Assembly (NCBI RefSeq): GCF_014635285.1
Contig: NZ_BMCR01000004.1
Span: forward strand, 310,001 to 374,000
Direction: 5' to 3'
Source of the DNA: Stappia taiwanensis
GTDB lineage: Bacteria; Pseudomonadota; Alphaproteobacteria; Rhizobiales; Stappiaceae
DNA length: 64,000 nt
The notes beneath the pieces were generated by a model. That model was not told the origin of the DNA. It did not search any database and saw only the letters and a program-made list of their open reading frames with translations. A program made the translations under genes and the position numbers. Below are positions 11,075 to 51,487 of the stretch, in pieces; the first letter of the stretch is position 1, and every line of letters begins with the position of its first letter.

Positions 11075-11239
11075 GTTGTTCCTCCCATCACCGACGACGG
11101 CCTTGCCGACGCCCGGCGTTCTTTTTTGAAAATACATCTTGTGGCTTGCGCCCAGTGGCGGACCGCCACCGATCCCTGGCCGGTTCCTCCCGCCCGGATT
11201 GCAAGGCAATCACGCTCCATGCATTCAAGTCAACGGTTT

Positions 11240-11249
11240 TTGTATACAA
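11240..11249. promoter_or_regulatory. palindromic GntR-type operator in the divergent malonate promoter region
   Basis: TTGTATACAA is a perfect 10-bp palindrome 28 bp upstream of the regulator start and 165 bp upstream of the binding-protein start. Palindromes of the TNGTNNACNA type are typical operators of FadR/FCD-class GntR regulators, so autoregulation and control of the mat operon are likely. Confidence 0.6.
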
Positions 11250-11277
11250 GAAAGGAGAATGTGCATATCCTGATCCC

Positions 11278-11970
11278 ATGAACACAGAGAGTGCCCCCCA
11301 CGCCCCCACCGCGACCCGCACCGCCAAGGCGCTGCGCGAAGTGCTGGAAGAGGACATTGCCGGCGGCGTCTATCCGCCGGGCACCCGGCTTGACGAAGCC
11401 TCTCTGGCGCGCCGTTTTGCCGTGTCGCGCACGCCGATCCGCGAGGCGCTGATCGAGCTCGCGGCATCGGGACTGATCGAGATTCGCCCCCGGCGCGGCG
11501 CCTTCGTGCGCGAAATCGGCATCCGCCGGCTGATCGAGATGTTCGAGGTGATGGCGGAGCTGGAGGCCATGTGCGGCCGCCTCGCCGCCCGCCGCATGAC
11601 GCCGGACGAGCACGCCCGGCTTGTCGCGGCGCATGAGGCCTGCGCCCGGGCCACCGAAAGCGGCGACCCCAGCGCCTATTTCGAGGCGAACGGCCAGTTT
11701 CACGAAGCGATCTACAGCGGCAGCGGCAACGAGTTTCTCGCCGAGCAGGCGCGCGCACTGCAAAGCCGTCTGAAACCCTATCGCCGGCTGCAACTGCATG
11801 TGCGCAACCGGGTGGGCAACTCATTTCAGGAGCATGAGGCGATCGTCGCGGCCATTCTCGACGGCGACGATACGCGAACGGAAGAGGCGCTGCGCGCCCA
11901 TATCCTGATTCAGGGGGAGCGGTTCAACGACTTCGTCGCCTCGCTCCGCCCCCGCGACGGCGCGAGCTGA
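11278..11970 (+). CDS. matR: GntR-family (FCD) regulator of malonate genes
   Basis: The 230-residue protein has an N-terminal winged helix (about residues 15-75, with GGVYPPGTRLDEASLARRF and SRTPIREALIELAASGLIEI) and a C-terminal FCD ligand-binding domain (about 85-215) with metal-site histidines in the HEA, FHEAIY and HEAIVAAI segments. FCD domains bind carboxylates such as malonate. It is divergent from the mat operon, and the palindrome TTGTATACAA lies in the shared gap. The AGGAGA motif is about 20 bases upstream of the ATG, so translation may be weak; no closer in-frame start exists. Confidence 0.82.
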   Translation: MNTESAPHAPTATRTAKALREVLEEDIAGGVYPPGTRLDEASLARRFAVSRTPIREALIELAASGLIEIRPRRGAFVREIGIRRLIEMFEVMAELEAMCGRLAARRMTPDEHARLVAAHEACARATESGDPSAYFEANGQFHEAIYSGSGNEFLAEQARALQSRLKPYRRLQLHVRNRVGNSFQEHEAIVAAILDGDDTRTEEALRAHILIQGERFNDFVASLRPRDGAS

Positions 11971-12000
11971 GCCGCGCCGTACCGTTTCAGCCCACTGCCA

Positions 12001-12714
12001 TCAGCTGGTCGAGTGAGCCTTGTCGAGCACCACCACCTTGGTGTGAAGCGGCACCCGGTTGAACAGATCGATGATGTCCTGATGCCACATGCGGATGCAG
12101 CCGCTGGACACGCTCCGGCCGATGCTGTCCGGCTTCTTGGTGCCATGGATGCGGTAGAGCGTGTCGACACTGCCCTGCCACAGGTCCATTGCCCGGGCGC
12201 CGAGCGGATTCCTTGGGCCGCGCGGGTAGCCGTCCTTCCAGTATTTCTCCAGCGCCGGGTTGCGGGCGATCATTTCCCGTGGAGGGCGCCAGATCGGCCA
12301 CACGCGCTTCACCCGCACCTTGGCATCGCCATTCCAGGCATAGCCGGCCCGGCCAACGCCAATGCCGTAGCGCAGAGCCTTGCCGCCGCCGAGCGTCCAG
12401 TACAGGAACTTGGCATAGGGGTCGATGATGATCGTCCCGGCCCGCTCGCTGGTGTCGTAATCCACCACCTGGCGCCAGTACTTGCGGTCATACTTCTTGT
12501 AGTTCAGCGCCGGGACCTTGAAATCGTAATCGGTCGTCGCCGCATAGGCCGCCGCGTAGTCGAACCCTTCCCCCGGCAACGGAGGCTGATTGTGCAACCC
12601 GACACTCGTCGCAACGCCCGAGGTCTGGCAGGCGGCCAGCACCAAGGGGGCCCCGAGAACGAGGCTGCGCCGCGTCAGCGCGCCACTGGCGTCAAGGCGC
12701 CGTTTCATTTCCAT
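12001..12714 (-). CDS. L,D-transpeptidase lipoprotein (YkuD domain)
   Basis: The 237-residue protein starts MEMKRRLDAS, has a twin-arginine-like TRRSLVLGAPLVLAAC leader and a lipobox (LAAC). The YkuD domain occupies the C-terminal half, with catalytic HGTKKPDSIGRSVSSGCIRM; the nucleophile is the cysteine of SGC. Such enzymes make 3-3 crosslinks in peptidoglycan or attach proteins to it, acting in the periplasm. It is monocistronic and convergent with matR, with a 30-bp gap. The substrate specificity within the family cannot be read from sequence. Confidence 0.9.
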   Translation of the reverse strand: MEMKRRLDASGALTRRSLVLGAPLVLAACQTSGVATSVGLHNQPPLPGEGFDYAAAYAATTDYDFKVPALNYKKYDRKYWRQVVDYDTSERAGTIIIDPYAKFLYWTLGGGKALRYGIGVGRAGYAWNGDAKVRVKRVWPIWRPPREMIARNPALEKYWKDGYPRGPRNPLGARAMDLWQGSVDTLYRIHGTKKPDSIGRSVSSGCIRMWHQDIIDLFNRVPLHTKVVVLDKAHSTS

Positions 12715-39838: not shown

Positions 39839-39901
39839 TTTCAATGGGGTAAGTGGTGCCCAGGGCCGGAATCGAACCAGCGACACGCGGATTTTCAATC
39901 C
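39839..39901. repeat. attL: left 63-bp direct repeat, displaced tRNA-Phe 3' half
   Basis: It is identical to 51397-51459, starting TTTCAATGGGG and ending TTTTCAATCC. It contains the 3' 48 bases of tRNA-Phe plus 15 bases beyond CCA. It lacks the tRNA 5' half, so it is not a functional gene. Confidence 0.92.
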
Positions 39902-39944
39902 CGATGGACTTTCCGGACGCCAGCGCTTTAGCCGATTTTCCCCT

Positions 39945-39994
39945 GTCAAACCGACGACACGAAATCAAGCACTTAGCGGCGATTTGTCAAACGC
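39945..39994. promoter_or_regulatory. putative left arm-type integrase sites
   Basis: GTCAAACCG occurs at 39945-39953 and an 8/9 match (GTCAAACGC) at 39986-39994. The same 9-mer occurs twice at the right end, so these may be arm sites bound by the integrase N-terminal domain. Confidence 0.45.
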
Positions 39995-40142
39995 GGTTTC
40001 GGAGGAAATCCGGGACCTGGCGCGCCTTGTCCTGCGCATTGGAATGCGCCGGCACGCGACGCCGGAAAGCTACCTTGAGGACAAGCACGACGCGGCCGAC
40101 CGCCTGCTGTTGCTCGCCGACCGGCTGGAGTGCAGCCGATGA
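39984..40142 (+). CDS. possible small protein upstream of the replication gene
   Basis: The frame encodes 52 residues from TTG 39984, or 32 from an internal ATG at 40044. Its C-terminal part (HDAADRLLLLADRLECSR) is amphipathic, and its stop overlaps the next start by ATGA, the usual sign of phage operon genes. No ribosome-binding site is obvious for either start, so the start is uncertain. I recognise no domain. Confidence 0.4.
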   Translation: MSNAVSEEIRDLARLVLRIGMRRHATPESYLEDKHDAADRLLLLADRLECSR

Positions 40143-40918
40143 ACAGGGTCACGTCTCTGAAGGATCGCGGGCGCAAACCCGCCACCTACCGCATCCAGTA
40201 TTCCGACAAGGCCAACTGGATGATGGCGCTTGGTATCGACCAGAGACTGACACCGGCCGAAATGCGCATCGGCATCGTTCTGTGCGGCTACATCAACGCC
40301 CGATCCGGTAGAGCATGGCCGACGGTGCCCACCCTGGCGGAAGCCACGGGCACAAGCGTCAGCAGCGCCAAGCGCGCTATTCGGAAGCTGGAGAAGGTCG
40401 GCTTGATTTCCGTGCATCGCAAGGGCGGGCGTGGGCACCCCAACTACTACGAACTGCGCTTTGATCGTCTCGTGGACACAGCCGAAAAGGGGGTCACCAG
40501 TGAACCCTTTTGTTCTGAAAAGGGGGCCAGCAATGAGCCGAAAGGGGTTCAAAACCACCCTGTAAAAGGGTTCACCGGTGACCCCCAAATAGAAAAGAAA
40601 GAAATAAAAAAAACGCGCGCGCATACGCGCGAGGAACACCCGCGACCGGAGAGCCCCGCACCAGCTCAGGGCGAAAGCGGCACCGACAACGCATCGCGCG
40701 CCCCGTCCTCACCTCCATCATCGGCAGAACAGGCGGGACGCCAGCGCGCCGAATTCGTGCCCCAATCTGATCCGCGATGGGATCGCCTTTCGGAGGTCTA
40801 TCACCAGCGCAAGGGCAAGCCGCCAATGACTTTGCGGTTGCATGGAGAAAAGGGGTGGCTGTTTCCCGTGGACGTTCTCGACGCCCTGGAGGACTGCCAG
40901 CGTTTGGGTCCTTCCTAG
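40139..40918 (+). CDS. winged-helix replication-initiator-like protein (HTH_36 type)
   Basis: The 259-residue protein has an N-terminal winged helix (about residues 38-100; LTPAEMRIGIVLCGYINARS, PTLAEATGTSVSSAKRAIRK, LEKVGLISVHRKGGRGHPN) like that of phage and plasmid replication initiators. A disordered Ser/Pro/Glu-rich linker (about 120-210) and a short conserved-looking C-terminus (GKPPMTLRLHGEKGWLFPVDV) follow. The linker is encoded by an iteron-like, A-rich DNA segment resembling an origin, as in lambda O. It is probably the initiator that loads a helicase at that site. No helicase or primase is encoded in the element, so host functions would be needed. Confidence 0.65.
   Translation: MNRVTSLKDRGRKPATYRIQYSDKANWMMALGIDQRLTPAEMRIGIVLCGYINARSGRAWPTVPTLAEATGTSVSSAKRAIRKLEKVGLISVHRKGGRGHPNYYELRFDRLVDTAEKGVTSEPFCSEKGASNEPKGVQNHPVKGFTGDPQIEKKEIKKTRAHTREEHPRPESPAPAQGESGTDNASRAPSSPPSSAEQAGRQRAEFVPQSDPRWDRLSEVYHQRKGKPPMTLRLHGEKGWLFPVDVLDALEDCQRLGPS
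40485..40631. other. putative replication origin inside the initiator gene
   Basis: Four iteron-like units starting AAA(A)GGG occur at 40485, 40518, 40541 and 40564. The outer two contain GGGGGTCACCAGTGAACCC (40489-40507) and its 18/19 inverted match GGGTTCACCGGTGACCCCC (40568-40586). Directly after comes an A-rich tract (40587-40613) and an alternating CG/CA block (40614-40631), suited to melting. The layout is that of lambdoid origins. Confidence 0.6.
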
Positions 40919-41022
40919 GCTCGGGCAATGCGGGGAGACACAGCCCGGCGTTTTTCTCGCTGAAGTCAAATTGATAGCTAAAAGCAAATGATGCCAACGG
41001 GTTAGCTATGCGGAAGGTGCAT

Positions 41023-41511
41023 ATGTCGGACATGATCGGGGAACCCCGGACCTTGCGGAAGTCGGATTTCGCCAAGGTCGCCAACGTGTCGCCGGGGCGG
41101 GTGTCACAGATGATCCGCGCCGGCCTGCCGGTGGAGCCTGACGGGCGGATTGACGTTGCACGTGGCCGGCTGTGGATCCAGTCCAACATCGACCCCAAGC
41201 GATCCGCCGCCCAAAGCGACCAGGGCGACCTGCCGCTTGCCGCCCGCACCGACGCGGCGACCGAACGGGCGCGGCTGGTGAAGGAACAGGCGGACCATGC
41301 GGCGCTCAAGAACGCGCTGCTGCGCCAGGACCTGCTGCCCGCCGCCGATGTGGAACGGGAATGGACCGACATGCTGCGGCGCGTGCGCTCCCGGCTTCTC
41401 GCCGTCCCCTCCCGGCTGCGGCAGGTGCTGCCGCACCTGACCGCCCATGACGTCGGCGCCATCGACACCGAACTACGCCACGCGCTGGAGGATCTTGCCA
41501 ATGCCGAATGA
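41023..41511 (+). CDS. terminase small subunit (Nu1-like)
   Basis: The 162-residue protein starts with a winged-helix DNA-binding domain (RKSDFAKVANVSPGRVSQMIR), followed by a helical region (EQADHAALKNALLRQDLLPAADVEREWTDML) typical of gpNu1-type subunits. It would bind the packaging site and recruit the large subunit. ATG 41023 has a GGAAGGTG at good spacing; ATG 41008 is in frame but lacks one. It overlaps the large-subunit start by 11 bp. Confidence 0.75.
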   Translation: MSDMIGEPRTLRKSDFAKVANVSPGRVSQMIRAGLPVEPDGRIDVARGRLWIQSNIDPKRSAAQSDQGDLPLAARTDAATERARLVKEQADHAALKNALLRQDLLPAADVEREWTDMLRRVRSRLLAVPSRLRQVLPHLTAHDVGAIDTELRHALEDLANAE

Positions 41512-43279
41512 ACCGCTTTCCCGCGTTCGCCGCGCCGCGCTGCGGGCGCTCCAGCCGCCGCCGCGCCTGGCGCTTTCCGCCTGGATCGAAACCGAGATTC
41601 GCTTGCCGGCGGATGTGTCCGCCCTGCCCGGCCCGATCCGCCTCTATCCGTTCCAGCGCGGCATCGCCGATGCCATCAGCGATCCGGAGATCGAGCGCGT
41701 CACCGTCGTGAAATCCGCCCGCATCGGCTACACCACCTTGCTGGTGGGTGCGCTCGCCTCGCATGTGGTCAACGAGCCGGCGCCGGTGCTGTTCGTGCTG
41801 CCGACCGAGGACGATTGCCGAAACTTCGTCGTGACCAACGTGGAACCCACCTTCGAAGCCTCGCCGGTGCTGGCCGGGGCGCTGACCGGCGAAGCCGGCG
41901 GGGAGAACCGCAACACGCTGTTGTCGCGCCGGTTCCCCGGCGGATCGCTGAAGGTGGTGGCGTCGAAATCGCCGCGCAACCTGCGCGCCCATAACACCCG
42001 CGTGCTGATCGTCGATGAGGCCGACGCCATGGAAATGACCGCCGAGGGAAGTCCCATCCTGCTGGCGGAAAAGCGCACACTTTCGTTTCCAGACCGCAAG
42101 ATTGTCATCGGCTCCACGCCGATCTTCGAAGAAACCTCGCATGTGCTGAACGCCTACGGCCGCTCCGACATGCGGGTGTTCGAGGTGCCTTGCCCCGGCT
42201 GCGGCGCGTTTCAGGAAATCACCTGGCGGGATATCCACTGGCCGGAGGGACGGCCGCAGGACGCGCATTGGGCCTGCCCGGCCTGCGGTTCGGTGGTGGA
42301 GGAACGGCACAAGCCGGCCATGGTCGCCGGTGGCCGCTGGCGCGCCACCGCGCCGGAGGTGGAGGGGCATGCCGGCTTCCGAGTCAATGCGCTGGTGTCA
42401 CCGCTGGCGAACGCTTCCTGGGGCAAGCTCGCGGCGGAATTCCTGACCGCGAAGGACACGCCGGAGCTGCTCCAGACCTTCGTCAACACGGTGCTGGGGC
42501 AAGGCTGGCGCGCGGAAGGCGAGGAACTGGACGAGGCGGCCCTTGCCGCCCGCGCGGAAGGGTTTTCCGTCGAGGCGCTGCCGGAAGACGTGCTCGCGGT
42601 GACGGCGGGCGTGGACGTGCAGCGCGACCGGCTGGAAATCACCTTCGTCGGCTGGAGCCGGACGGGCGATGCCTTCGCCCTGGGGCATTCGGTGGTCTGG
42701 GGCCTGCCGGCCGATGGCGCCACCTGGGCGGAGCTGGACAGCCTCCTGAAGACCCGCCTCCCGCATCCCCTTGGCGGCACGCTGGGGCTCGATGCGGTGG
42801 CGATTGATTCCGGCGATGGCGAGACCATGGAAGCGGTCTATGCCTTCGCCTTCCCGCGTGCGGCGCGCAAGGTGCTGGCGATCAAGGGCGCGTCCGGCGC
42901 GCGGCCGTGGATCGAGCGTTCCAAGAGCCGGATCAAGGGCGGCCGGCTGTGGATTGTCGGCGTGGACGGGATCAAGAGCCACCTGGCCGGCCGGCTTTCG
43001 TCCGGCACCAGCGTGCGCTTTTCCCGGGAGCTTCCGGCGGTCTGGTTCGAACAGCTCGCCAGCGAGCGCGCCGTGGTGCGCTATGCCCGGGGCCAGCCAC
43101 AACGGCGGTTCGAGCGCATCGCCGGGCGACGGGCGGAAGCGCTCGACTGCATGGTCTACGCCTTCGCCGCCCGGCAGCTGATCAATCCGAATTGGGACGA
43201 ACGGCGGGACGCGCTGGCGCGACCGGAGGTGCGAGACGCAAAGCCGGCGGGCGTGATCCGGTCGGGGTGGTGTGGCTAA
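41501..43279 (+). CDS. terminase large subunit (GpA family)
   Basis: The 592-residue protein has a degenerate Walker A-like KSARIGYTT at residues 71-79, Walker B VLIVDEADAME at 168-178, a motif III-like IGSTP, and a zinc-ribbon-like CPGCG (231-235) with a second CPACG near 262, as in lambda gpA. The C-terminal half carries the nuclease-domain aspartates (VTAGVDVQRDRLE, GLDAVAIDSGDGE). It translocates DNA into proheads and cuts at cos-type sites. It is full length. Its presence with Nu1-like, gpB-like and gpW-like proteins indicates a lambda-type head module. Confidence 0.9.
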   Translation: MPNEPLSRVRRAALRALQPPPRLALSAWIETEIRLPADVSALPGPIRLYPFQRGIADAISDPEIERVTVVKSARIGYTTLLVGALASHVVNEPAPVLFVLPTEDDCRNFVVTNVEPTFEASPVLAGALTGEAGGENRNTLLSRRFPGGSLKVVASKSPRNLRAHNTRVLIVDEADAMEMTAEGSPILLAEKRTLSFPDRKIVIGSTPIFEETSHVLNAYGRSDMRVFEVPCPGCGAFQEITWRDIHWPEGRPQDAHWACPACGSVVEERHKPAMVAGGRWRATAPEVEGHAGFRVNALVSPLANASWGKLAAEFLTAKDTPELLQTFVNTVLGQGWRAEGEELDEAALAARAEGFSVEALPEDVLAVTAGVDVQRDRLEITFVGWSRTGDAFALGHSVVWGLPADGATWAELDSLLKTRLPHPLGGTLGLDAVAIDSGDGETMEAVYAFAFPRAARKVLAIKGASGARPWIERSKSRIKGGRLWIVGVDGIKSHLAGRLSSGTSVRFSRELPAVWFEQLASERAVVRYARGQPQRRFERIAGRRAEALDCMVYAFAARQLINPNWDERRDALARPEVRDAKPAGVIRSGWCG

Positions 43280-43490
43280 ACCAACACACGCGCCTCAAGG
43301 GACGCATATGGAGCCCTCGAGTTTCTATTTGCGTTTGCACATTGTGTGATAGTGTGGAAAAGCCTCATTTGAGGATTGCACGAAGGGCGCAGCTAACGTG
43401 ACGGCCATGCGGCTCCATCCATCGATGGCATACCACGTCTTGAATGCCATCGGACTTATACCCGCCCAAAAAACAACAACCAGAGGGCGA

Positions 43491-43515
43491 ACATATAAAC
43501 GCCAAGTTTATACGT
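43491..43515. promoter_or_regulatory. palindromic operator upstream of the antitoxin-like gene
   Basis: TATAAAC (43494-43500), spacer GCCAA and GTTTATA (43506-43512) are perfect inverted arms, extendable to 10 bp with one mismatch. It lies 34 bp upstream of the small gene's start, where a repressor would cover the promoter. Confidence 0.6.
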
Positions 43516-43549
43516 TATCATTAAAAGAATGAACGAAAAGGAGGTGGCG

Positions 43550-43741
43550 ATGTCAAAGAATAAGATCTTAGACGAGCTCGTTGAGCGTGCACGCCATCAT
43601 AAGATGACACCAGCGGAACGACGGGCACAACGTGTCAGTCTGATTCTTGGTCTTCGTGGTAACGAGTCCTTGCTCACAAAAGAGCGCATCGAGGAGATAC
43701 TCGATGATAACGAGGGAAACGGGTATCGCGAAGCTGGCTAA
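43550..43741 (+). CDS. small antitoxin-like protein upstream of Fic
   Basis: The 63-residue protein is helical and basic in the middle (RARHHKMTPAERRAQR), with an acidic end (EEILDDNEGNGY). The ATG follows an excellent AAGGAGGTGGCG. Position, size and AT-rich composition suggest the antitoxin of the downstream Fic protein. The canonical Fic inhibitory motif (S/T)xxxE(G/N) is absent; the nearest stretch is SLILGL. It could inhibit Fic in another way or serve as a DNA-binding autoregulator at the palindrome at 43494-43512. A terminator separates it from fic. Confidence 0.55.
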   Translation: MSKNKILDELVERARHHKMTPAERRAQRVSLILGLRGNESLLTKERIEEILDDNEGNGYREAG

Positions 43742-43781
43742 ATCTCTAATTGCCATAACAGCGCATAAAGACCTATGATTA

Positions 43782-43807
43782 TGGCCTGATATCAGGCCAT
43801 TTTTTTT
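43782..43807 (+). terminator. terminator between the small gene and fic
   Basis: ATGGCCTG ATAT CAGGCCAT (43782-43801) is a perfect palindrome followed by seven T residues. It stands 10 bp before the fic start and should reduce toxin expression relative to the upstream gene. Confidence 0.8.
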
Positions 43808-43816
43808 GGGCGCGCA

Positions 43817-44476
43817 ATGAAAGATGACAATTGGGATTTGATTAACGGACCCATCGCTCATGAAATTGAGGTCCTAAACTACTCAAATCAAATTAACAAT
43901 ATAGAGTGCATTGTTAAACTCCTTACCCACCAAGGGAAAGAGCAAGCGACAGATGTATTCCCATCCGAGATGGCACTAAAAGAACTACATAGGACCGGAA
44001 CAATATTTCTACTCCAACACCCCGGATATTATAGAGATGTGGAAGTTCATGTCGGAAATGAAAAGGTAATTGTGCACCAGCCTCCACCGTGCTCAAAAAT
44101 ACAGATGCATATTACAGATTTTTTTGAGACTCTTGGGAAACTATGGCCCAACTCAACGCCATTGGAATTAGCATCTTATGCTTTGTGGCGCATCAATTGG
44201 ATACATCCATTCAAAAATGGAAATGGAAGATGCGCCCGAGCATTTGCATATACTTGCCTTTGCCTGAAGTATGGCTTTATGCTCCCTGGAAACAGAACAA
44301 TAATTGACCTAATAATGGTCAACAAGATCACTTTTCAGAACTGCCTAAAAGAAGCAGACACTGCCTACGAATCAAACGGAGAGATAAATATCTCTTCAAT
44401 GATAAAATTTCTTGAGGAACTTCTTATACTTCAGCTTAAATCTTCTGTCGAAACAGAAAAATACGAAGAAGCATGA
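43817..44476 (+). CDS. Fic-family AMPylase/toxin
   Basis: The 219-residue protein carries the complete Fic motif HPFKNGNGRCAR at residues 130-141 (consensus HPFx(D/E)GNGRxxR; the usual acidic residue is Asn here). A flap-like segment around YYRDVEVHVG and helices on both sides (LELASYALWRINWI, AFAYTCLCLKYGFML) complete the fold. Fic enzymes transfer AMP or other nucleotide groups to target proteins. Neither this protein nor its small neighbour has an (S/T)xxxE(G/N) inhibitory motif. The gene is markedly AT-rich against its GC-rich neighbours, so it is recently acquired cargo. It could act as a toxin or anti-phage factor. Confidence 0.82.
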   Translation: MKDDNWDLINGPIAHEIEVLNYSNQINNIECIVKLLTHQGKEQATDVFPSEMALKELHRTGTIFLLQHPGYYRDVEVHVGNEKVIVHQPPPCSKIQMHITDFFETLGKLWPNSTPLELASYALWRINWIHPFKNGNGRCARAFAYTCLCLKYGFMLPGNRTIIDLIMVNKITFQNCLKEADTAYESNGEINISSMIKFLEELLILQLKSSVETEKYEEA

Positions 44477-44530
44477 CCCGCTCAAGAAAGGCGCTTTGGT
44501 GCAACGCCCCTGCTTCCTAGCTTGAACCTA

Positions 44531-44755
44531 TCAATCCTTCTTCAACCTCACGCCCGGCCCTTCGCCATTTTCGTCAATGAAGATCACGCCGGCGGCTTCG
44601 AGGGCGGCGCGGATCGCCTCGACCGTGCGCGGCTTCAGCTCTTCCCCGCGTTCAAGGCGCGTGACGGTCGTGGGAGAGACCTTCGCCAAATCGGCAACCT
44701 CCCTGATTCCCAAGCCCAAAGCTGCACGCGCCATTCGGCATTGAGCCGCATTCAT
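44531..44755 (-). CDS. XRE-family regulator, putative element repressor
   Basis: The 74-residue protein is a compact helix-turn-helix (LGIREVADLAKVSPTTVTRLERG) with a short C-terminal tail (EAAGVIFIDENGEGPGVRL) seen in many small XRE regulators. It is divergent from the downstream operon that contains the head genes. Two inverted copies of GTGTnACnnTGTGAC lie in the shared gap, beginning 1 bp from its start codon. It probably represses itself and the rightward operon, keeping the element quiescent. No peptidase-type domain is present, so induction would not be by RecA-dependent autocleavage. Confidence 0.75.
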   Translation of the reverse strand: MNAAQCRMARAALGLGIREVADLAKVSPTTVTRLERGEELKPRTVEAIRAALEAAGVIFIDENGEGPGVRLKKD

Positions 44756-44756
44756 T

Positions 44757-44825
44757 GTGTTACCCTGTGACTATTTTGTCTTGACGTGACCGTTTCAGGA
44801 TGCCTAATTGGTCACATCGTTACAC
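44757..44825. promoter_or_regulatory. paired operators in the XRE/structural divergent region
   Basis: GTGTTACCCTGTGAC (44757-44771) and, in opposite orientation, the complement of GTCACATCGTTACAC (44811-44825) agree at 11-12 of 15 positions. A TTGACG -35-like hexamer lies between them (44781-44786), and GTGACC/GGTCAC arms at 44786-44791 and 44810-44815 add a second dyad. Confidence 0.55.
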
Positions 44826-44848
44826 TTTTCATACCACAGGAGACACGG

Positions 44849-45103
44849 ATGGGCATCCATTTTCGTGAACGGGGAAGGTGCGTCCCTGTCTGGCTGACAA
44901 TCGAGCCGGCCACCCGCGCCCGCATCGAAGCGGCGATTGAGAACCTTGTCGCCCTGCTCGACCAGATCGACGGGGATTACGACCAGGAGTACGACACGGC
45001 GGACCTGGAGCCGGACGGGACGGACGAACCCCGCCGCGTCACCCCCGCCACGCGGCACGATCAACGCCAGTGGGCGCATGGCCACCAGGAAGGTTCCCGA
45101 TGA
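44849..45103 (+). CDS. small acidic hypothetical protein
   Basis: The 84-residue protein has an acidic centre (LLDQIDGDYDQEYDTADLEPDG) and a basic, Arg/His-rich end. The ATG has an AGGAGA ribosome-binding site. It is the first gene under the putative repressor operators and overlaps the next start by ATGA. I recognise no domain. Its position at the start of the element's main operon makes it a candidate for a helper-interference or regulatory protein, by analogy with other satellites. Confidence 0.6.
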   Translation: MGIHFRERGRCVPVWLTIEPATRARIEAAIENLVALLDQIDGDYDQEYDTADLEPDGTDEPRRVTPATRHDQRQWAHGHQEGSR

Positions 45104-45564
45104 CTGACTGTCGTGTTGCGGCCATCGGCCGGGAACTTGCCGAGCTGTCGCGTGAATGGGCACGGCTGGACGGGGAAGGATGCGCCGTGCAGGGCGCTCG
45201 CAAGATCCGGCTGGACCGCATGGAACGTGAGGTGCTGGACCGCATCGACCTGTTGCAGGCGGAAGCCTGCGGCACGCTGGCGACCAGCCCGGCCGGCGCC
45301 ATGGTGCAAACCATGCTCGCCTATGATCTCGCCAACAAGCTCTACGAATTCATCCCCGACGACGCGCCGGCCTACGAGGTCTCCGCGCTTCTGCGGGCAC
45401 TCACACGCGCGCTCTATTCCGCCGTGGATGCCATCGCCGCAACCACCGGCGAGGACCCCAATAGCCTCGGCGCCGATCACTTCATGGCCCGCGAATGGCA
45501 TCCGTTCCACCTGTGCGAAAGGGCGGGAGAGCGAAGCTCTACACAACATGAAAAGAACGCTTGA
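45100..45564 (+). CDS. hypothetical phage-associated helical protein
   Basis: The 154-residue protein is predicted helical (ELAELSREWARLDGEG, MEREVLDRIDLLQAEAC, SALLRALTRALYSAVDAIAATT), with no membrane segment. It is translationally coupled to the preceding gene through ATGA. No domain is recognised. GC content is close to that of the head genes. Confidence 0.6.
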   Translation: MTDCRVAAIGRELAELSREWARLDGEGCAVQGARKIRLDRMEREVLDRIDLLQAEACGTLATSPAGAMVQTMLAYDLANKLYEFIPDDAPAYEVSALLRALTRALYSAVDAIAATTGEDPNSLGADHFMAREWHPFHLCERAGERSSTQHEKNA

Positions 45565-45609
45565 CATGACATGAAAAGATGCGACCATGCCTTCACTCTA
45601 CATGTCATG
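45546..45609. promoter_or_regulatory. direct and inverted repeats upstream of the MerR-like gene
   Basis: ACATGAAAAGA occurs at 45546 and 45569 (23-bp spacing). CATGACATG (45565-45573) is inverted as CATGTCATG (45601-45609). A perfect TTGACA hexamer lies at 45561-45566, but a matching -10 is not clear. Autoregulation by the adjacent regulator is a reasonable guess. Confidence 0.45.
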
Positions 45610-45619
45610 GGAAGCAATT

Positions 45620-46168
45620 ATGTCCAAGAAGATGACCGTCAAAGACATGGCGTATCGCCTCGCAGTCGCTACCGGGCAGAGCGAAACGCTTCATGCTCGG
45701 CAGGTGCGCCACTGGGCACAGCATGGTCTTTTTGGCTTCGAAGACCTTGAGAGGTCCGGGGACAGCCGAACGGCGAGCTATTTTTACAATGACCGGCACC
45801 TTGCGGCCGCGCGCCTCTACGCCCTCTTCACCGCGATGGGGTGGAATATTGACCAGCTCGGCAAGGTGTCGCGGCTGATCAAGAACATCGGCCAGGACGA
45901 CGCGCCGAAGATCGATATCGGAGGCGCTTGGAAGATCGAACGCAACGGCCTCAAGGTGGTGGTGGACGCGGCCAAGGCGGGGGATTTCGACTGGTGCTTC
46001 GGCGTCTACAGCGATGAGCGCGGCACGGTGCATGGCGGTTCCATGATGCGTGCCTCGGCGACCGGTCCTTCTGAGCTGCGGCATAGCTTCGCACCGGTCT
46101 TCACCGTCATTGCCCTGGGACCGCTCTTCCGTCGGCTGTTCACCCCGGACGCCGGCGGCGAGGCCTGA
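45620..46168 (+). CDS. MerR-like DNA-binding protein of the element
   Basis: The 182-residue protein begins with a MerR-type winged helix (TVKDMAYRLAVATG, RQVRHWAQHGLFGF, YFYNDRHLAAARLYALFTAMGW), followed by a region with an uncharacterised C-terminus (DAAKAGDFDWCFGVYSDERG). ATG 45620 has GGAAGCA seven bases upstream; earlier in-frame ATGs at 45587 and 45602 are less likely. It lies between the early operon and the head genes, three bases before the portal gene, suggesting control of head gene expression. It sits beside repeats that could be its operator. Confidence 0.65.
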   Translation: MSKKMTVKDMAYRLAVATGQSETLHARQVRHWAQHGLFGFEDLERSGDSRTASYFYNDRHLAAARLYALFTAMGWNIDQLGKVSRLIKNIGQDDAPKIDIGGAWKIERNGLKVVVDAAKAGDFDWCFGVYSDERGTVHGGSMMRASATGPSELRHSFAPVFTVIALGPLFRRLFTPDAGGEA

Positions 46169-46171
46169 CCC

Positions 46172-47548
46172 ATGCGCCCCCTCGCCCGCCGCATCTTCGA
46201 TGCCGTCTTCCCGAAACGCTCGCTCGACGCGGGCGGCGGCGGCCGCCGCTGGCGGGATGCGCCGACCGTCACCAGCGCCAGCACGCTGCACGGGGTTGCC
46301 TCCACGGTCGCCGCCCGGGCCTTGCATTACGGCCTCAACAACCCGACCGGGGTGCGGATGCTGGAATGCCTGGCGACCAACATTGCCGGCGACGGGATCA
46401 AGCCCCGCTCCGAGCATGAGGACGAGGCGACCCGCCAAGCGCTGCATCGGCGCTTCAAGACCTGGACCGATGCGGCCGACGCGGACGGTCTGACGGATTT
46501 CTACGGCCTCCAGCAACTGGCGGTGCGCGACCTTGCCAGCTTCGGCGAGGCGCTGTTCACCTTCACCCCCGATCCGGACACGGGCGCGCCGCAACTGCGC
46601 AGGCTGCACCCGGAACAGCTCGACCGCTCCATGACGCGCACCCACGAAAGCGGGGCCGCCGTCTATCAGGGCGTGGAATTCGATACCTTCGGGCGGATCA
46701 CCGCCTATCACATTCGCCGGGCAGCGCCGGGCGATACGCTCGCCGGTCTTCCAAGCGCGCCCGTGCGGATGCCGGCGAGCGACATCATTCACCTGTTCCG
46801 CCCGCTGGTTCCCGGCCAGGTGCGCGGCCTGTCCTGGTTCGCCCCGGTCCTCCTGCCGGCGCGGGAGCTGGATGCCCTTTGCGATGCGCTCTTGATGCGC
46901 GCCAAGGTCGCCGCCCTCCACGCCGGGTTCATCACCGAGACGGATGGCAGCCCCCTCTATGAAGGGGAACAAAGCGGGTCCGTGCTGCAAGCCGGGCTGG
47001 AGCCGGGGGCGCTCATTCCCCTGCCGCCGGGCAAGGACGTTGCGTTTCCCGACGTGCCCGACCAGGGCGGCGCGGGGGCGCTGATGGGCACCACCTTCCG
47101 CCTGATCGCCGCCGGCATGGGCGTCACCTACGAACAGGCGACCGGGGACTATTCCCAGGTGAACTATTCCAGCGCACGGGCGGCGCTGCTGGAGTTTCGC
47201 CGCTTCTGCCAGTCGATCCAGCACCACGTGATGGTGTTCGGCCTGTGCCGGCCGGTCTGGCGATCCTTCATTCGCCACCAGGTGCTTGCCGGCACCATTC
47301 CGGCGACGGCCTATCAGGCAGACCCCGCCGCCTTCGAAGCGGCCAAGTGGCTTCCCCCGGCCTGGCCCTGGGTGGACCCGGAGAGCGACGCCAAGGCGGC
47401 GGAAGTCGCTTTGAACAACCGGCTGCGCAGCCGCTCCGAAATCATCGCCGAACGCGGCTATGACGCGGAAGATGTGGACGCGGAGATTGCCGCCGATGCG
47501 GCGCGGCTCGACCGGCTCGGCATCGGCCAACAGGAGGCAGCACAATGA
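46172..47548 (+). CDS. phage portal protein, lambda gpB family
   Basis: The 458-residue protein shows the lambda-family portal features: an N-terminal AARALHYGLNNPTGVRML segment, IIHLFRPLVPGQVRGLSWFAPVL with the conserved RGLSWFAP, and MGVTYEQATGDYSQVNYSSARAALLEF. It forms the dodecameric DNA entry ring at one head vertex and binds the terminase and connector. It is full length. The stop overlaps the next start by ATGA, as in an intact head operon. Confidence 0.92.
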   Translation: MRPLARRIFDAVFPKRSLDAGGGGRRWRDAPTVTSASTLHGVASTVAARALHYGLNNPTGVRMLECLATNIAGDGIKPRSEHEDEATRQALHRRFKTWTDAADADGLTDFYGLQQLAVRDLASFGEALFTFTPDPDTGAPQLRRLHPEQLDRSMTRTHESGAAVYQGVEFDTFGRITAYHIRRAAPGDTLAGLPSAPVRMPASDIIHLFRPLVPGQVRGLSWFAPVLLPARELDALCDALLMRAKVAALHAGFITETDGSPLYEGEQSGSVLQAGLEPGALIPLPPGKDVAFPDVPDQGGAGALMGTTFRLIAAGMGVTYEQATGDYSQVNYSSARAALLEFRRFCQSIQHHVMVFGLCRPVWRSFIRHQVLAGTIPATAYQADPAAFEAAKWLPPAWPWVDPESDAKAAEVALNNRLRSRSEIIAERGYDAEDVDAEIAADAARLDRLGIGQQEAAQ

Positions 47549-49371
47549 CCGCTCCGGCCCTGATGCGGGCGGGCTTCACCCCCGCCACCGTGGACGACAA
47601 GGCGCGCACCGTCGAGCTGGTCGCCTCGACCGGCGCGGGCGTTCCCCGCCACGACATGCGCGGAACCTTTCTGGAGGTGCTGGAGGTCAGCGAAGGCGCG
47701 GTGGACCTGACCCGCCTGGAAGGCCTGCCGCTGCTGGACAGCCACCGGCAAGACGGCCTCGACAATGTGCTTGGCGTGGTTCGCGCGGTGCGCTTCGAGC
47801 CGGGGCGGCTGATCGTCAAGGTTCAGTTTTCCACCCGCCGCGATGACGTCTGGCAGGACGTCCGCGCCGGGATCATCCGAAACGTGAGTGTCGGCTATCT
47901 CCCGAAGACATGGCGCGACGGCAAGGACCCGAATTCGGGCGCACGGGTCCGCACCGTCACGCAGTGGGAGCTACGCGAAGTCAGCCTTGTGGCGGTTGGA
48001 GCCGACCCCGCCGCACAAATTCGAGGAACCACCATGCCCCCCGAAACACATACTCCGGACGCGCCCCCGGCCAATACGGCGCCGGCGGCCACGCCGCCCG
48101 CCCCCACGGAAACCCGCGCGGCGGCAAATCAGGAAATCCGGGCGCTGGCCAATACCTTCGATCTGGGGTCCGATTGGGCAAATGCGCAGATCGACCGCGG
48201 CGCCAGCGAAACCGAGGCACGCGCTGCGGCGCTCGACAGCCTGCGCACGCAGCGCGCGGTCGCACCGACCGCCCGCACCAGTGCAATGCACCACCATGAC
48301 GACCCGGCGACCATCGCCACACGGATGGGCGAAGCGGTCTATGCCACGCGGGTCAACCCGGCACATGAGCTGTCGGACCAGGCGCGGGCCTTCGCCGGCA
48401 TGACGACGCTGGACATGGCGCGCGATTGCCTGCAGCGCTCGGGCGTCTCCACAACCGGCCTCAACCCGGCCGACACGATCACCCGGGCGCTGCACACCAC
48501 CAGCGATTTTGCCACCATCTTCGCCGACACGGCGAACCGCACCCTGCGAGCGGCCTATGCCTCGGCACCGGGCACGCTGAAGCGGCTGGCACGGCAGACC
48601 ACCCACAAGGACTTTCGCGCCAAGACCAAGGTGCAAGCGGCCGATATCGCCAAGCTGGAGAAGGTCAACGAGCATGGCGAATACAAGCATTCCGGCTTCG
48701 TGGAGGCGAAGGAAACCTATGCAATCGGCACCTACGGCACGATTGTCGGCCTGACCCGGCAAGCGCTGGTCAACGACGATCTCGGGGCCTTCACCGATCT
48801 GGCCGGCAAGCTCGGCACCGCGTCTTCCGAATTCGAGGCGCAATTTCTGGTGGACCTTCTCACCAAGGGCGGCGGCGGCGGCATCGGCCCGGTGATGGAT
48901 GACGGCAAGCCGGTGTTCCACGCCGACCACGGCAACCTTGCCGCAGCTGGCGGGGCGCTTTCCAAGGACGCACTGTCCGCCGCACGGCTCGCCATGCGCC
49001 GGCAGAAGGGCATCAACGGCCGGCCGATCGCCATTGCCCCGAAATTCCTGGTGGTGCCGCCGGAGCTGGAAACCACGGCGGAGGAAATCCTTGCCGCGAT
49101 CCAGCCGACCAAGACCGCCGACGTGAACGTGTTCGGCGGCAAGCTGGAACTGGTGGTGGAACCGCGCCTGACCGACGTGAAGCGCTGGTACATCGCCGCC
49201 GACCCGGCCACCGTCGAGGGGCTGGAATATGCCTATCTCATGGGGTCGGAAGGACCGCAGACCGACAGCCGCGCCGGCTTCGAGGTCGATGGCGTGGAGG
49301 TCAAGGTTCGGCTCGACTACGGCGCTTCGTTCCTCGACTGGCGCGGCTGGTACATGAACGAGGGGCAGTAA
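47545..49371 (+). CDS. prohead protease/major capsid fusion protein
   Basis: The 608-residue protein joins a prohead protease-like domain (residues 1-160) to a major capsid domain (about 230-608). Probable catalytic residues are His67 in DSHRQDG, Ser115 in NVSVGY and a Glu in WELREVSLV. The linker is Pro/Ala/Thr-rich. The capsid part includes FAGMTTLDMARDCLQRSGV and KHSGFVEAKETYAIGTYGTI. An internal in-frame ATG (48034, residue 164) with AGGA upstream lies exactly at the domain junction and may make capsid protein alone. It follows the portal gene with an ATGA overlap and precedes gpW with a TAATG overlap. Confidence 0.9.
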   Translation: MTAPALMRAGFTPATVDDKARTVELVASTGAGVPRHDMRGTFLEVLEVSEGAVDLTRLEGLPLLDSHRQDGLDNVLGVVRAVRFEPGRLIVKVQFSTRRDDVWQDVRAGIIRNVSVGYLPKTWRDGKDPNSGARVRTVTQWELREVSLVAVGADPAAQIRGTTMPPETHTPDAPPANTAPAATPPAPTETRAAANQEIRALANTFDLGSDWANAQIDRGASETEARAAALDSLRTQRAVAPTARTSAMHHHDDPATIATRMGEAVYATRVNPAHELSDQARAFAGMTTLDMARDCLQRSGVSTTGLNPADTITRALHTTSDFATIFADTANRTLRAAYASAPGTLKRLARQTTHKDFRAKTKVQAADIAKLEKVNEHGEYKHSGFVEAKETYAIGTYGTIVGLTRQALVNDDLGAFTDLAGKLGTASSEFEAQFLVDLLTKGGGGGIGPVMDDGKPVFHADHGNLAAAGGALSKDALSAARLAMRRQKGINGRPIAIAPKFLVVPPELETTAEEILAAIQPTKTADVNVFGGKLELVVEPRLTDVKRWYIAADPATVEGLEYAYLMGSEGPQTDSRAGFEVDGVEVKVRLDYGASFLDWRGWYMNEGQ

Positions 49372-49586
49372 TGGCAACGCTCGCCGAGCTGGCAACACGG
49401 CTGGAGGCGCTGCGCAAAATCCGCGCCGGCGGCCGTCGCGCCATCGATTCAGATGGCAGCAAGGTCGAGTATCGCAGCGACGGCGAGCTTGCGGCAGCGA
49501 TTGCCGACCTGGAGCGGCAGATATCCGCACACTCGGGCAAGCCCGCTGCCCGCGTCGTCTACATCAATTCCTCGAAAGGCACATGA
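49371..49586 (+). CDS. head-tail joining protein, lambda gpW-like
   Basis: The 71-residue protein matches gpW-type connectors: MATLAELATRLEALRKIRAG, a central SDGSKVEYRSDGELAAAIADL and a short C-terminal tail. gpW closes the filled head and gives the platform for further connector proteins. No gpFII-like or tail tube gene follows, which in a satellite would be supplied by a helper phage. The start overlaps the capsid stop by one base. Confidence 0.82.
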   Translation: MATLAELATRLEALRKIRAGGRRAIDSDGSKVEYRSDGELAAAIADLERQISAHSGKPAARVVYINSSKGT

Positions 49587-49587
49587 C

Positions 49588-49923
49588 ATGAAGAACTTCG
49601 TGCAACAGGGAAAATTCGTGACCGTCACCGCGCCGGCCGGCGGCATCAGCGCCGGGGATGGCGTGCTGGTCGATCACTTGTTCGGCGTGGCGACCACGAC
49701 CGCCACGGAAGGCGAACAGTTGGAAATCGCCACCGATGGCGTGTTCGACCTGGACAAGGATGCCGGCGCCTCCCTGACCGCCGGTGCGCCGATCTATTGG
49801 GACGACACCGCCAAGGTGGTGACCATCACCGCAACCGCCAATCTGCGGATCGGCACCGCGCTTGAAGCCGCCGCGCTGGCGGACGCCACCGGGCGCATCC
49901 TGATCACCGGCCACGCGATCTAG
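49588..49923 (+). CDS. DUF2190 capsid decoration protein
   Basis: The 111-residue protein is predicted all-beta and starts MKNFVQQGKFVTVTAPAGGI, with the DUF2190 features GDGVLVDHLFGVATTTA and GAPIYWDDTAKVVT. Family members decorate or stabilise phage capsids. It begins two bases after the gpW stop and is the last gene of the head operon, followed by a hairpin terminator. Confidence 0.87.
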   Translation: MKNFVQQGKFVTVTAPAGGISAGDGVLVDHLFGVATTTATEGEQLEIATDGVFDLDKDAGASLTAGAPIYWDDTAKVVTITATANLRIGTALEAAALADATGRILITGHAI

Positions 49924-49958
49924 CGGCGGGCCTCCTGGGCGGCGCGGTCCCGCCTGAA

Positions 49959-50013
49959 GCCCATGCCCGCCGCCGCTGGCACCTCATGACGGGCATGGGC
50001 AGACCGCTTTTTT
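49959..50013 (+). terminator. terminator after the head operon
   Basis: GCCCATGCCCG (49959-49969) and CGGGCATGGGC (49990-50000) form a perfect 11-bp stem with a 20-nt loop; six T residues lie at 50008-50013. It separates the head operon from the integration module. Confidence 0.7.
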
Positions 50014-50029
50014 CAAGCGAGGTGAGACG

Positions 50030-50266
50030 ATGAACAGAGCCCTTATTGAAGTGAATGTTCCTCCGTTCCGGATGCTCAAGAAATCCGATGCGGCGGGCTA
50101 CTGCGGAATGGCCGCCAAGGCATTCGAGGGCCTTTGCCCGGTCACGGCAGTGGAAATGCCGAACGGCGTGCGCCTGTGGGACGCTCGCGACCTGGACGCA
50201 TGGCTTGACGGTCTCAAGGCGGGAGACGCCGACAGCGACGACGCCATTCTCGACAAGTTGGGCTGA
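50030..50266 (+). CDS. excisionase-like helix-turn-helix protein
   Basis: The 78-residue protein has an AlpA/excisionase-type motif (MLKKSDAAGYCGMAAKAFEG and VRLWDARDLDAWLDGL). It has a GAGGTGAG ribosome-binding site and ends five bases before the integrase start. It probably acts as a recombination directionality factor or as an integrase regulator. Confidence 0.72.
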   Translation: MNRALIEVNVPPFRMLKKSDAAGYCGMAAKAFEGLCPVTAVEMPNGVRLWDARDLDAWLDGLKAGDADSDDAILDKLG

Positions 50267-50270
50267 TCCC

Positions 50271-51341
50271 ATGACCGTGGTGCGCGTGCGCGGCTTCCAG
50301 ATCTTCAAGGACCGCTTCGGCAAGTGGCGGTGCTACCACCGCAAGACGCGGCAGAAAGTCGACCTGGACCGGGCGCCGCTTGGTTCGGCAGCTTTCTTCG
50401 CCGAGTGCCAGCGGATCACCGACGCGCTTGCCACCGCCGGCGAACCCAAGCCGGGAACGCTCGGCAAGCTCATTGAGAAATACCGCGCCAGCCCTGATTT
50501 CATGGAAAAGGCACCGCGCACCCGCGCCGACTATCAACGGGTGTTCGATTACCTCTACCCGATCCGCGACACCGAACTTGCGAAATTCACCTCGCCGCTG
50601 GTGGTCAAGATCCGCGACCGGGCAGAAGCCAAACGGGGCGCGCGCTTCGGCACCTATGTCAAACAGGTGATTTCCCTTCTCTTCTCCTGGGGCAAGGAAC
50701 GCGGGTTCGTGAAGGTCAACCCGGCGCTTGGTGTGCGAGGTGTGCGCCGGAAGCGCGGCGCACCCATGGCGAACCGCCCCTGGAGCGATGCCGAACGGCA
50801 TGCGGTGCTGGAGGCTGCCCCCGCGCAAATGCTGCCGGCGCTCGGGCTGATGATGTTCACCGGCCTGGGACCGCAAGACGCGCTCACCCTGCCCCGCACC
50901 TTCTTCAAGAACGGCGCCATTGCAACGGAACGCTCCAAGACCGGCGCGCCGGTCTATTGGCCGGTTATCGAGCCGCTGCAAGACATTCTGGACGCGGCAC
51001 CGGCACACGACGCCCTGACGCTGTGCGCCAACTCGAAAGGCCGCCCCTGGACGGTCTCCGGCTTCCGGGCGTCCTGGACGACCTTGCGCCGAGCCCTGGA
51101 GGATGCCGGCAAGGTGCAACCCGGTCTCACGCTCTACGGCCTGCGCCACACCGTGGCGACGATCCTTCGCGAAGCCGGCTGCGATGATCGCACCATTGCC
51201 GATGCGCTCGGGCAGAAGACCGAGGACATGGCCCGGCACTACAGCAAGGCCGCCGACCTTCGCCGAAAGATGGGGGATGTGGGCGCCATTTTCGAAACCG
51301 CCGTGAACGACCGGCGAACAAAAACTGTCAAACCGGATTGA
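50271..51341 (+). CDS. tyrosine recombinase/integrase
   Basis: The 356-residue protein has an N-terminal arm-binding region, a core-binding SAM-like domain (about 62-165) and a C-terminal catalytic domain (about 168-350). Lys223 (SKTG), Arg292 (YGLRHTVAT) and the nucleophile Tyr324 (ARHYSK) are visible. The first catalytic arginine is replaced in TGLGPQDAL, and the His positions read Tyr and Gln (LYGLRH, LGQKT). This may be a family variant. It lies 55 bp from attR and reads towards it, as is usual for tRNA-integrating elements. Confidence 0.85.
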   Translation: MTVVRVRGFQIFKDRFGKWRCYHRKTRQKVDLDRAPLGSAAFFAECQRITDALATAGEPKPGTLGKLIEKYRASPDFMEKAPRTRADYQRVFDYLYPIRDTELAKFTSPLVVKIRDRAEAKRGARFGTYVKQVISLLFSWGKERGFVKVNPALGVRGVRRKRGAPMANRPWSDAERHAVLEAAPAQMLPALGLMMFTGLGPQDALTLPRTFFKNGAIATERSKTGAPVYWPVIEPLQDILDAAPAHDALTLCANSKGRPWTVSGFRASWTTLRRALEDAGKVQPGLTLYGLRHTVATILREAGCDDRTIADALGQKTEDMARHYSKAADLRRKMGDVGAIFETAVNDRRTKTVKPD

Positions 51342-51357
51342 AAATCCCGTCAAACCG
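51327..51357. promoter_or_regulatory. putative right arm-type integrase sites
   Basis: GTCAAACCG occurs at 51327-51335 and 51349-51357, spaced by 22 bp (two helical turns), at the end of the integrase gene and next to attR. The same 9-mer occurs at the left end. Confidence 0.5.
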
Positions 51358-51396
51358 AGGGGCAAAAGCGATGCCACCCGAAAAAGCTTCTAACGA

Positions 51397-51459
51397 TTTC
51401 AATGGGGTAAGTGGTGCCCAGGGCCGGAATCGAACCAGCGACACGCGGATTTTCAATCC
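51397..51459. repeat. attR: right 63-bp direct repeat within tRNA-Phe
   Basis: It is identical to 39839-39901. It covers tRNA-Phe from the anticodon stem to CCA plus 15 bases, so the element restores a complete tRNA gene. Confidence 0.92.
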
Positions 51460-51487
51460 GCTGCTCTACCAACTGAGCTACCTGGGC
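51412..51487 (-). tRNA. tRNA-Phe (anticodon GAA)
   Basis: A 76-nt cloverleaf can be drawn, with acceptor arm GCCCAGG/CCTGGGC, anticodon loop TTGAAAA (anticodon GAA), T-arm GGTTCGATTCC and encoded CCA. It is the integration target; the 3' half is supplied by the element. Confidence 0.95.

Follow-up and report, generated by a model that had tools for sequence, protein, structure and literature searches.

Capsid-forming phage-inducible chromosomal islands (cf-PICIs), said to have been described by Alqurainy et al. in 2023, are among the closest known systems to the locus considered here, an 11.6-kb island at positions 39839-51459 of a 64,000-nucleotide stretch of the Stappia taiwanensis genome (contig NZ_BMCR01000004.1, positions 310,001 to 374,000; hereafter, the window). 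Published accounts credit cf-PICIs with capsid, protease, portal, connector, HNH and both terminase genes, with tails taken from a helper phage (PMC10690885); they give a mean genome of 14 kb and a list of main hosts without Alphaproteobacteria (PMC10803314), and they divide cf-PICI capsids into three radiations (PMC11389934). Two Streptomyces satellites, MulchRoom and MiniFlayer, resemble the island in that they are satellites encoding packaging and capsid proteins of their own, and MulchRoom is thought to use the tail of its helper; they are characterised by the lack of genes similar to known primases, direct terminal repeats, virulent helpers and a Streptomyces host (PMC10690885). The window island is very probably a capsid-forming, tail-less phage satellite and not the remnant of a deletion. 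The widespread family of such satellites to which it belongs is real and apparently undescribed.

Like the cf-PICIs, the island is integrated, small and tail-less, and it encodes both terminase subunits, a portal, a protease and a capsid of its own; of the head-tail connectors it has one, the gpW-type adaptor. Unlike them, it has no HNH gene (none of the 15 island open reading frames (ORFs) scanned matched an HNH endonuclease in Pfam or PHROGs), and it is further distinguished by a cargo slot between TerL and the portal, a length of ~11.8 kb and its occurrence in Alphaproteobacteria. Its GpA terminase, lambda-family portal and gpT-like protease-capsid fusion would also set it apart from cf-PICIs, which use other, HK97-type families. 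By analogy, the island would work like a cf-PICI, but we do not file it as one, because it has no HNH gene and because it was compared with the cf-PICI clades by description only. The cf-PICI logic proposed in the initial annotation (own capsids, helper tails) fits as an account of how the island would work, short of membership. A P4-like element or classical PICI, which uses and resizes helper capsids, was ruled out by the island's own capsid gene. With phages and prophages of the Rhodobacter phage RcKvothe type (L098, and L028 in the window's own genome), the island shares homologous TerL, portal, protease-capsid fusion and cement genes; in members of this type, gpW precedes the portal, a cargo slot is lacking, and the cement gene is followed by genes for head closure, tail terminator, tube and tape measure. 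The suggestion that an alphaproteobacterial version might be undescribed agrees with a literature search in which no title or opening of an abstract listed described an alphaproteobacterial capsid-forming satellite, subscription papers and preprints being mostly outside its coverage.

The island is bounded by perfect 63-nt direct repeats, and the right-hand copy overlaps tRNA-Phe(GAA), at 51412-51487 on the minus strand, the sole tRNA gene detected by ARAGORN in the 64-kb window. These repeats had been recognised in the initial annotation, as had the replication, TerS, TerL, portal, protease-capsid, gpW, DUF2190, integrase and Fic genes, all of which were recovered by Pfam and PHROGs. The reported absence of tail, tape-measure, baseplate and lysis genes was borne out, with no match to tail or lysis families among the 15 ORFs scanned (Pfam, PHROGs, NCBIfam). 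Likewise, no head closure or tail terminator protein was matched in the island, in which the gpW-type adaptor is the single connector. Other claims stood only in part. The portal of the supposed lambda-type head set does belong to the lambda family, but the capsid domain is of the Phage_capsid_4/Mu gpT-like type, fused to an S78-type protease. The excisionase-like gene has no Pfam or PHROG match, but its ORF is conserved in relatives. The terminator thought to close the head operon consists of a perfect 10-bp inverted repeat followed by T6 (-30.1 kcal/mol; z -3.5), but a simple consensus scan listed nothing at this site, and terminator-like sites are not in excess in the island (12 observed, shuffle mean 12.0).

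Scanning genome contigs with the window capsid protein identified five relatives, in Stappia indica, Labrenzia, Pleomorphomonas and two Pseudovibrio. The tail-less layout is common to these five, with an unmatched 86-aa ORF in the place of gpW in L002, and it was also found in other relatives bounded by an integrase gene, in which the small interval between capsid and integrase usually holds gpW, cement and a small ORF. Capsid matches, tailed prophages included, were obtained in 35 of 87 genomes of the family (E≤1e-3), 37 of 249 of the order (E≤1e-60), 17 of 385 of the class (E≤1e-30) and 27 of 398 of the phylum (E≤1e-60). Within the family, 13 places in 12 genomes had at least 48% capsid identity; one lay on a 3.7-kb contig (G037), two had less than 1.5 kb of DNA 3' of the capsid (G008 and G011), and no tail cluster was found at those remaining.

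Gene strings were read with a codon-model gene caller in 77 fetched regions. The satellite order was Rep-TerS-TerL-variable slot-small genes-portal-capsid-gpW-cement-(small ORF)-integrase, and the tailed order, that of phage RcKvothe, was TerS-TerL-gpW-portal-capsid-cement-head closure-tail terminator-tube-tape measure. Among fetched loci with a readable TerL upstream of the portal (near-duplicates included; eight further loci unassigned), gpW lay 3' of the capsid in 79, none with an RcKvothe-type tail cluster and with a median TerL-portal gap of 2872 bp, and 5' of the portal in 30, of which 22 had such clusters and for which the median gap was 216 bp. Eight more regions were hand-picked from the phylum search, L211 and L212 being short or having few genes called; all four outside the class had gpW before the portal, and all four inside it had the satellite order. 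A scan of IMG/VR yielded at least 564 capsid relatives among 600 candidate stretches, satellite nature being shown for only part of them. No RcKvothe-type tail gene was found in the 78 loci added from this source, many of which were short and in which unlabelled ORFs were judged without a profile scan. The 767-aa ORF of L049, from which we first assumed a tailed locus, had no tape-measure match and resembles, by eye, a membrane sensor protein; L049 is therefore ambiguous. The 700-aa ORF of L077 matched a methyltransferase.

A capsid-domain tree was inferred for 74 rows, picked and labelled by us from the gene strings. One branch (96/94) separated all 46 satellite-labelled rows from all 18 tailed-labelled rows. 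The satellite side also contained L043, L088, L090, L091 and L097, and the tailed side L049, L075, L076, L077 and L094; several rows, L041, L091, L097 and L088, have long branches. With odd rows scored apart, the satellite trait changed three times on this tree, versus a mean of 22.8 after shuffling, with no value as low in 500 shuffles. As an unrooted tree, it shows the separation of satellite and tailed rows, not the ancestral state.

Integrase-bounded loci carried a direct repeat at the end of a tRNA gene of at least seven species (Phe, Met, Gln, Ser, Arg, Gly and Glu), to which L088, with an odd architecture, adds tRNA-Val. The repeats measured at least 42 nt in the clearest loci and 15-27 nt in others. 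Repeats at tRNA-Phe were also present in L001, L009, L019, L020 and L021; in L009, a metagenome contig, the 63-nt copies lie close to both ends. The repeat was away from a tRNA gene in L059 and L062, no tRNA was called in L063, and among the loci examined with a downstream integrase, no direct repeat was found in L010, L011, L013-L016, L061, L065 and L096. Extra copies of the tRNA-Phe att sequence, off the tRNA gene, were noted at G074:C11:37-93 and G079:C1:1347323-1347379, hinting at other islands at the same site.

The 21 att-bounded islands had a mean length of 11,845 bp (standard deviation (sd) 458; range 10,702-12,536). This set excludes L064 and L068 (9.9 and 9.2 kb, cement not found), L088 (odd architecture), L059 and L062 (doubtful repeats), L058 (a duplicate of L003) and any locus in which no repeat was found; adding L064 and L068 gave a mean of 11,642 bp and an sd of 809 (n=23). 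The distance from attL to TerS was negatively correlated with the TerL-portal gap (r=-0.775, n=21; none of 20,000 permutations as low), and the sum of the two had an sd of 472 bp, versus 996 bp if they were independent. The correlation was retained with repeats of at least 40 nt only (n=11, r=-0.837, p=0.0007) and of at least 22 nt (n=14, r=-0.811, p=0.0004). Longer left modules thus go with shorter cargo slots, as if because a fixed small capsid limited length, and a fixed head volume would be the simplest cause of this compensation. One relative, L104 (IMGVR_UViG_3300010392_003325; 11,498 bp; capsid 56% identical), has an exact 127-bp terminal repeat and so closes into an 11,371-bp circle, in the order integrase-small ORFs-TerS-TerL-small ORFs-portal-capsid-ORF-cement-integrase, the contig ends falling between cement and integrase. 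A tRNA-like attP sought after its integrase gene was not found. The circle is consistent with an element that is excised or replicating, or with concatemers.

Comparison with the Stappia indica island showed four element blocks with 96.9-98.3% nucleotide identity, the right flank having 91.6% over 7.9 kb and the YrhK gene of the left flank 89.5% over 645 bp. No alignment was obtained for the cargo (43270-44537) or for most of the MerR gene (45525-46121). By these identities, the element has a more recent common ancestry than its flanks. Since its blocks are closer than the flanks, transfer or exchange of the core apparently took place later than the divergence of the hosts, cargo and regulator being replaced as cassettes. 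Replication modules also differ between near relatives, with RepO, a 632-aa protein or one of two others 5' of TerS. Within the genus, the right flank was present in all 14 genomes, seven of which had no capsid match at E≤1e-3. The ratio of nonsynonymous to synonymous substitution rates (dN/dS), with respect to three relatives, was 0.06-0.39 for TerL, portal, capsid, gpW and cement; it was 0-0.24 for TerS and 0.11-0.16 for the integrase. As estimated by this codon comparison, the head genes are under purifying selection.

A 10-base motif, GGGTCCTTCC, occurs once in the window, at 40906 (expected 0.15; at least one copy in 13 of 100 shuffles). In the tree clade of the window (16 rows, 13 of them testable), 12 rows have this motif or its one-base variant GGGTCCTCCC on the forward strand, 65-126 bp 5' of TerS, both where this stretch encodes the end of RepO and where it is non-coding. 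The single miss, L104, has GGGTCCTTCT, which differs by one base. In the sister clade, GGTTCCT was present within 330 bp 5' of TerS in 28 of 31 rows, at the matching place in an aligned subset. The motif upstream of TerS is a putative cos or terminase-binding site.

In the satellite reading, the island would integrate at tRNA-Phe by its own integrase and, upon infection by or induction of a helper, would excise and replicate with its own initiator. It would build its own small heads, its TerS and TerL cutting and packaging the DNA at the cos-like site 5' of terS. The head would be finished at the gpW adaptor, and the helper would supply the neck and tail and lyse the cell.

Homologues of the head genes occur in tailed phages (33% identity with RcKvothe, 36% with LPPA33), as would be expected of the head module of a tailed prophage left after the loss of its tail and lysis genes. 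Such a remnant is nevertheless a most improbable explanation: the same order and a similar length recur across many genomes, and separate recent deletions would each have to yield them identically; the gene order is unlike that of tailed relatives, with gpW after the capsid; and the island lies on the opposite side of the capsid tree, with purifying selection, intact att repeats and an integrase. Close relatives in which complete tail and lysis genes follow this island, together with a deletion scar in the window, were sought and not found, L043 being the nearest partial exception; the five named-genome relatives and the integrase-bounded ones share the tail-less layout, which favours the satellite reading over the remnant, as the initial annotation had it. 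It is somewhat easier to imagine, but still unlikely, that the element is a virus able to propagate without a helper, having a short tail that escaped recognition or entering cells without one, given its own replication, packaging and head genes and the few neck, tape-measure-like or minor-tail genes of L043 and L049; the integrase-bounded islands, however, hold little between capsid and integrase (usually gpW, cement and a small ORF), and no lysis family was matched in the window island. A domesticated host head locus, of the kind of a gene transfer agent, would draw some credit from a homologue of the tail-assembly family phrog_778, which occurs at one place in the same genome (C4:155338; among 14 control genomes, only Caulobacter matched) and probably belongs to a gene transfer agent cluster. 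We regard this explanation as very unlikely, because the island is att-bounded and patchy in the genus, its relatives use several tRNA genes, it is more alike between species than its flanks, and one relative (L104) is found as a circle.

Several observations weigh against interpretation as a satellite. The motif was detected in only 24 of the 69 satellite-order loci tested, two of the 24 being L043 and the tailed L076, and also in three of 31 tailed-order loci. A terminal repeat was present in just one of 48 IMG/VR contigs read at full length, and in none of nine in another set. The length statistic ignores shared ancestry and omits two shorter islands, L064 and L068. A pooled PHROG scan of 107 ORFs 3' of the capsid in satellite-type loci gave one tape-measure match among the best 25 of 106 matched families, and tail matches may exist beyond the integrase-bounded islands; this match is a 794-aa ORF of L076, which has a downstream terminase and a capsid grouping with tailed phages. 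L043, nested among the satellites in the tree (capsid 51.7% identical to that of the window) and without a cargo slot, has a tape-measure-like 857-aa ORF after the cement gene (phrog_9483, 2.4e-18) and a 195-aa ORF matching a minor tail protein (phrog_1924, 3.3e-41); no tube, baseplate or lysis match was obtained among its eight scanned downstream ORFs. Finally, an RcKvothe-type tail terminator was carried by two of 11 satellite-bearing genomes and one of nine others, all chosen by us, so the islands show no tie to this phage type.

Table 1. Features of the island, with positions in the window
Feature	Position	Strand	Basis or remark
attL, 63-nt direct repeat	39839..39901	+	repeat comparison
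52-aa ORF beside attL	39984..40142	+	without PHROG match; cluster with 14 members among fetched loci
replication initiator, O-like (HTH_36)	40139..40918	+	Pfam/PHROGs; module swapped between relatives
cos-like motif GGGTCCTTCC (putative)	40906..40915	+	102 bp 5' of TerS start; single copy in window
terminase small subunit TerS	41008..41511	+	phrog_57 4.5e-33
terminase large subunit TerL, GpA type (ATPase + nuclease)	41501..43279	+	Pfam; start from gene caller
70-aa cargo ORF, 5' of Fic	43529..43741	+	no Pfam/PHROG/NCBIfam match
Fic-domain cargo	43817..44476	+	Pfam; SoFic match; mob_myst_B below cut-off
helix-turn-helix (HTH) regulator, opposite strand	44531..44755	-	Pfam, PHROGs
small ORF o105	44849..45103	+	kept in near relatives
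small ORF o164	45100..45564	+	kept in near relatives
MerR-type regulator (modelled), immediately 5' of portal	45587..46168	+	structure model; position conserved, sequence variable
portal, lambda family	46172..47548	+	Pfam, PHROGs, NCBIfam
prohead protease-major capsid fusion	47545..49371	+	Pfam; phrog_4523; NCBIfam NF045541
gpW-type head-tail adaptor (Ad1)	49371..49586	+	phrog_2545; NCBIfam NF047331
cement / head decoration (DUF2190)	49588..49923	+	Pfam, PHROGs
hairpin + T-run, probable head-operon terminator	49960..50015	+	inverted repeat, folding energy
small excisionase-like ORF before integrase	50030..50266	+	no Pfam/PHROG match; conserved in relatives
tyrosine integrase	50271..51341	+	Pfam, PHROGs; start from gene caller
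attR, 63-nt direct repeat overlapping tRNA-Phe	51397..51459	+	repeat comparison, ARAGORN

The protease-capsid fusion is shorter in satellites (median 601 aa, range 577-635, 42 rows) than in tailed loci (median 679 aa, range 581-710, 18 rows), four satellite rows of less than 560 aa, with the capsid as a separate or partial ORF, having been dropped. Of the ~78 residues by which the medians differ, 51 fall at window residues 151-200, between the protease and the capsid domain, the latter being of about equal length in the two groups. We take this interval to be the place of a scaffold domain, and the shortened linker may set a smaller capsid. The C-terminus of gpW resembles S-S-K-G-hydrophobic, and a loose [ST][KR]G motif was present in the last residues of 94 of 102 distinct satellite-order proteins, mostly from the IMG/VR sister clade, versus nine of 30 tailed-order proteins.

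At 45 loci, a count that takes in near-duplicates and one or more portal fragments (L022), the portal is preceded by a variable gene of 130-260 aa. These genes could not be treated as a single sequence family, a profile search joining only seven of the 45. The window protein was modelled as a MerR-type protein with a mean predicted local distance difference test (pLDDT) score of 81, its best solved match being CvkR (7xn2, E 6.3e-4), whereas the MerR-like look of the other pre-portal genes was judged by eye; Foldseek returned no match at E≤0.001 against a viral library. The MerR-type regulator probably controls the head operon.

A tblastn search of a phage collection with the gpW adaptor matched only three AcaML1 records (E 1e-2), and no helper was found by this route. 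The window's own genome contains the head region of an RcKvothe-type prophage that reaches the contig end (L028, G000:C2:1-16302), a candidate resident helper. We tentatively put forward a broader scheme, somewhat less likely than not: capsid-forming satellites would have had an independent alphaproteobacterial origin; a shortened scaffold linker in the capsid protein would set particle size; a single gpW with a conserved S-S-K-G-hydrophobic tip would take the tails of several kinds of helper, possibly including the host gene transfer agent; and a fixed ~12-kb head would make replication and defence modules trade length. If the alphaproteobacterial family is as large as it appears, own-head packaging with tail borrowing would have evolved further times, and the family would be an added store of mobile defence-type genes, restriction-modification among them. 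It opens two directly testable questions: whether the linker determines capsid size, and whether the gpW tip governs the acceptance of foreign tails.

Comparison across relatives identifies the interval between TerL and the portal as a slot for exchangeable cargo, often with defence-type genes. PADLOC was run on 95 cargo proteins, selected by us (mainly longer ones) from 166 non-redundant proteins, with a few added by hand. Matches to mad2 were obtained for 21 of the 95, and there were up to 12 matches to Type I and up to 10 to Type II methyltransferase models, and 10 to Type IIG; the models overlap, and the counts per model are not additive. The window Fic protein, for which a role in defence may be considered, matched SoFic (3.7e-12), with mob_myst_B under the cut-off. 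Fic motifs normally have Asp or Glu at a position occupied by Asn in the window's motif, HPFKNGNGRCAR. A terminator-like hairpin (43781-43800) divides the 70-aa ORF from Fic. In L019, the TerL 3' end and a portion of the HTH gene each give two alignments, surrounding the cargo, which suggests that the cassette was inserted by duplication.

Unusual architectures were also recorded among the capsid relatives. L043 and L180 (G413:C6) represent a ~17.7-kb relative lying between tRNA-Gly and an integrase-like ORF. ORFs resembling tape-measure and minor tail proteins follow its cement gene, and it may be intermediate between the satellites and the tailed phages. In L003, L011 and L059, a long portal-labelled ORF (634-637 aa) is followed by a short capsid ORF (461-468 aa), a layout suggestive of a protease joined to the portal rather than to the capsid. 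The Rhodovastum plasmid RHOAph (L097; NZ_OW485609.1, 10,690 bp) encodes a protease-capsid fusion, ParA, DUF3987 and a toxin-antitoxin pair, with no annotated portal or terminase, and is possibly a capsid element in plasmid form. A 7,842-bp plasmid of Synechococcus elongatus (hits H54-H57) carries a distant relative (24%) annotated as an HK97 family prohead protease.

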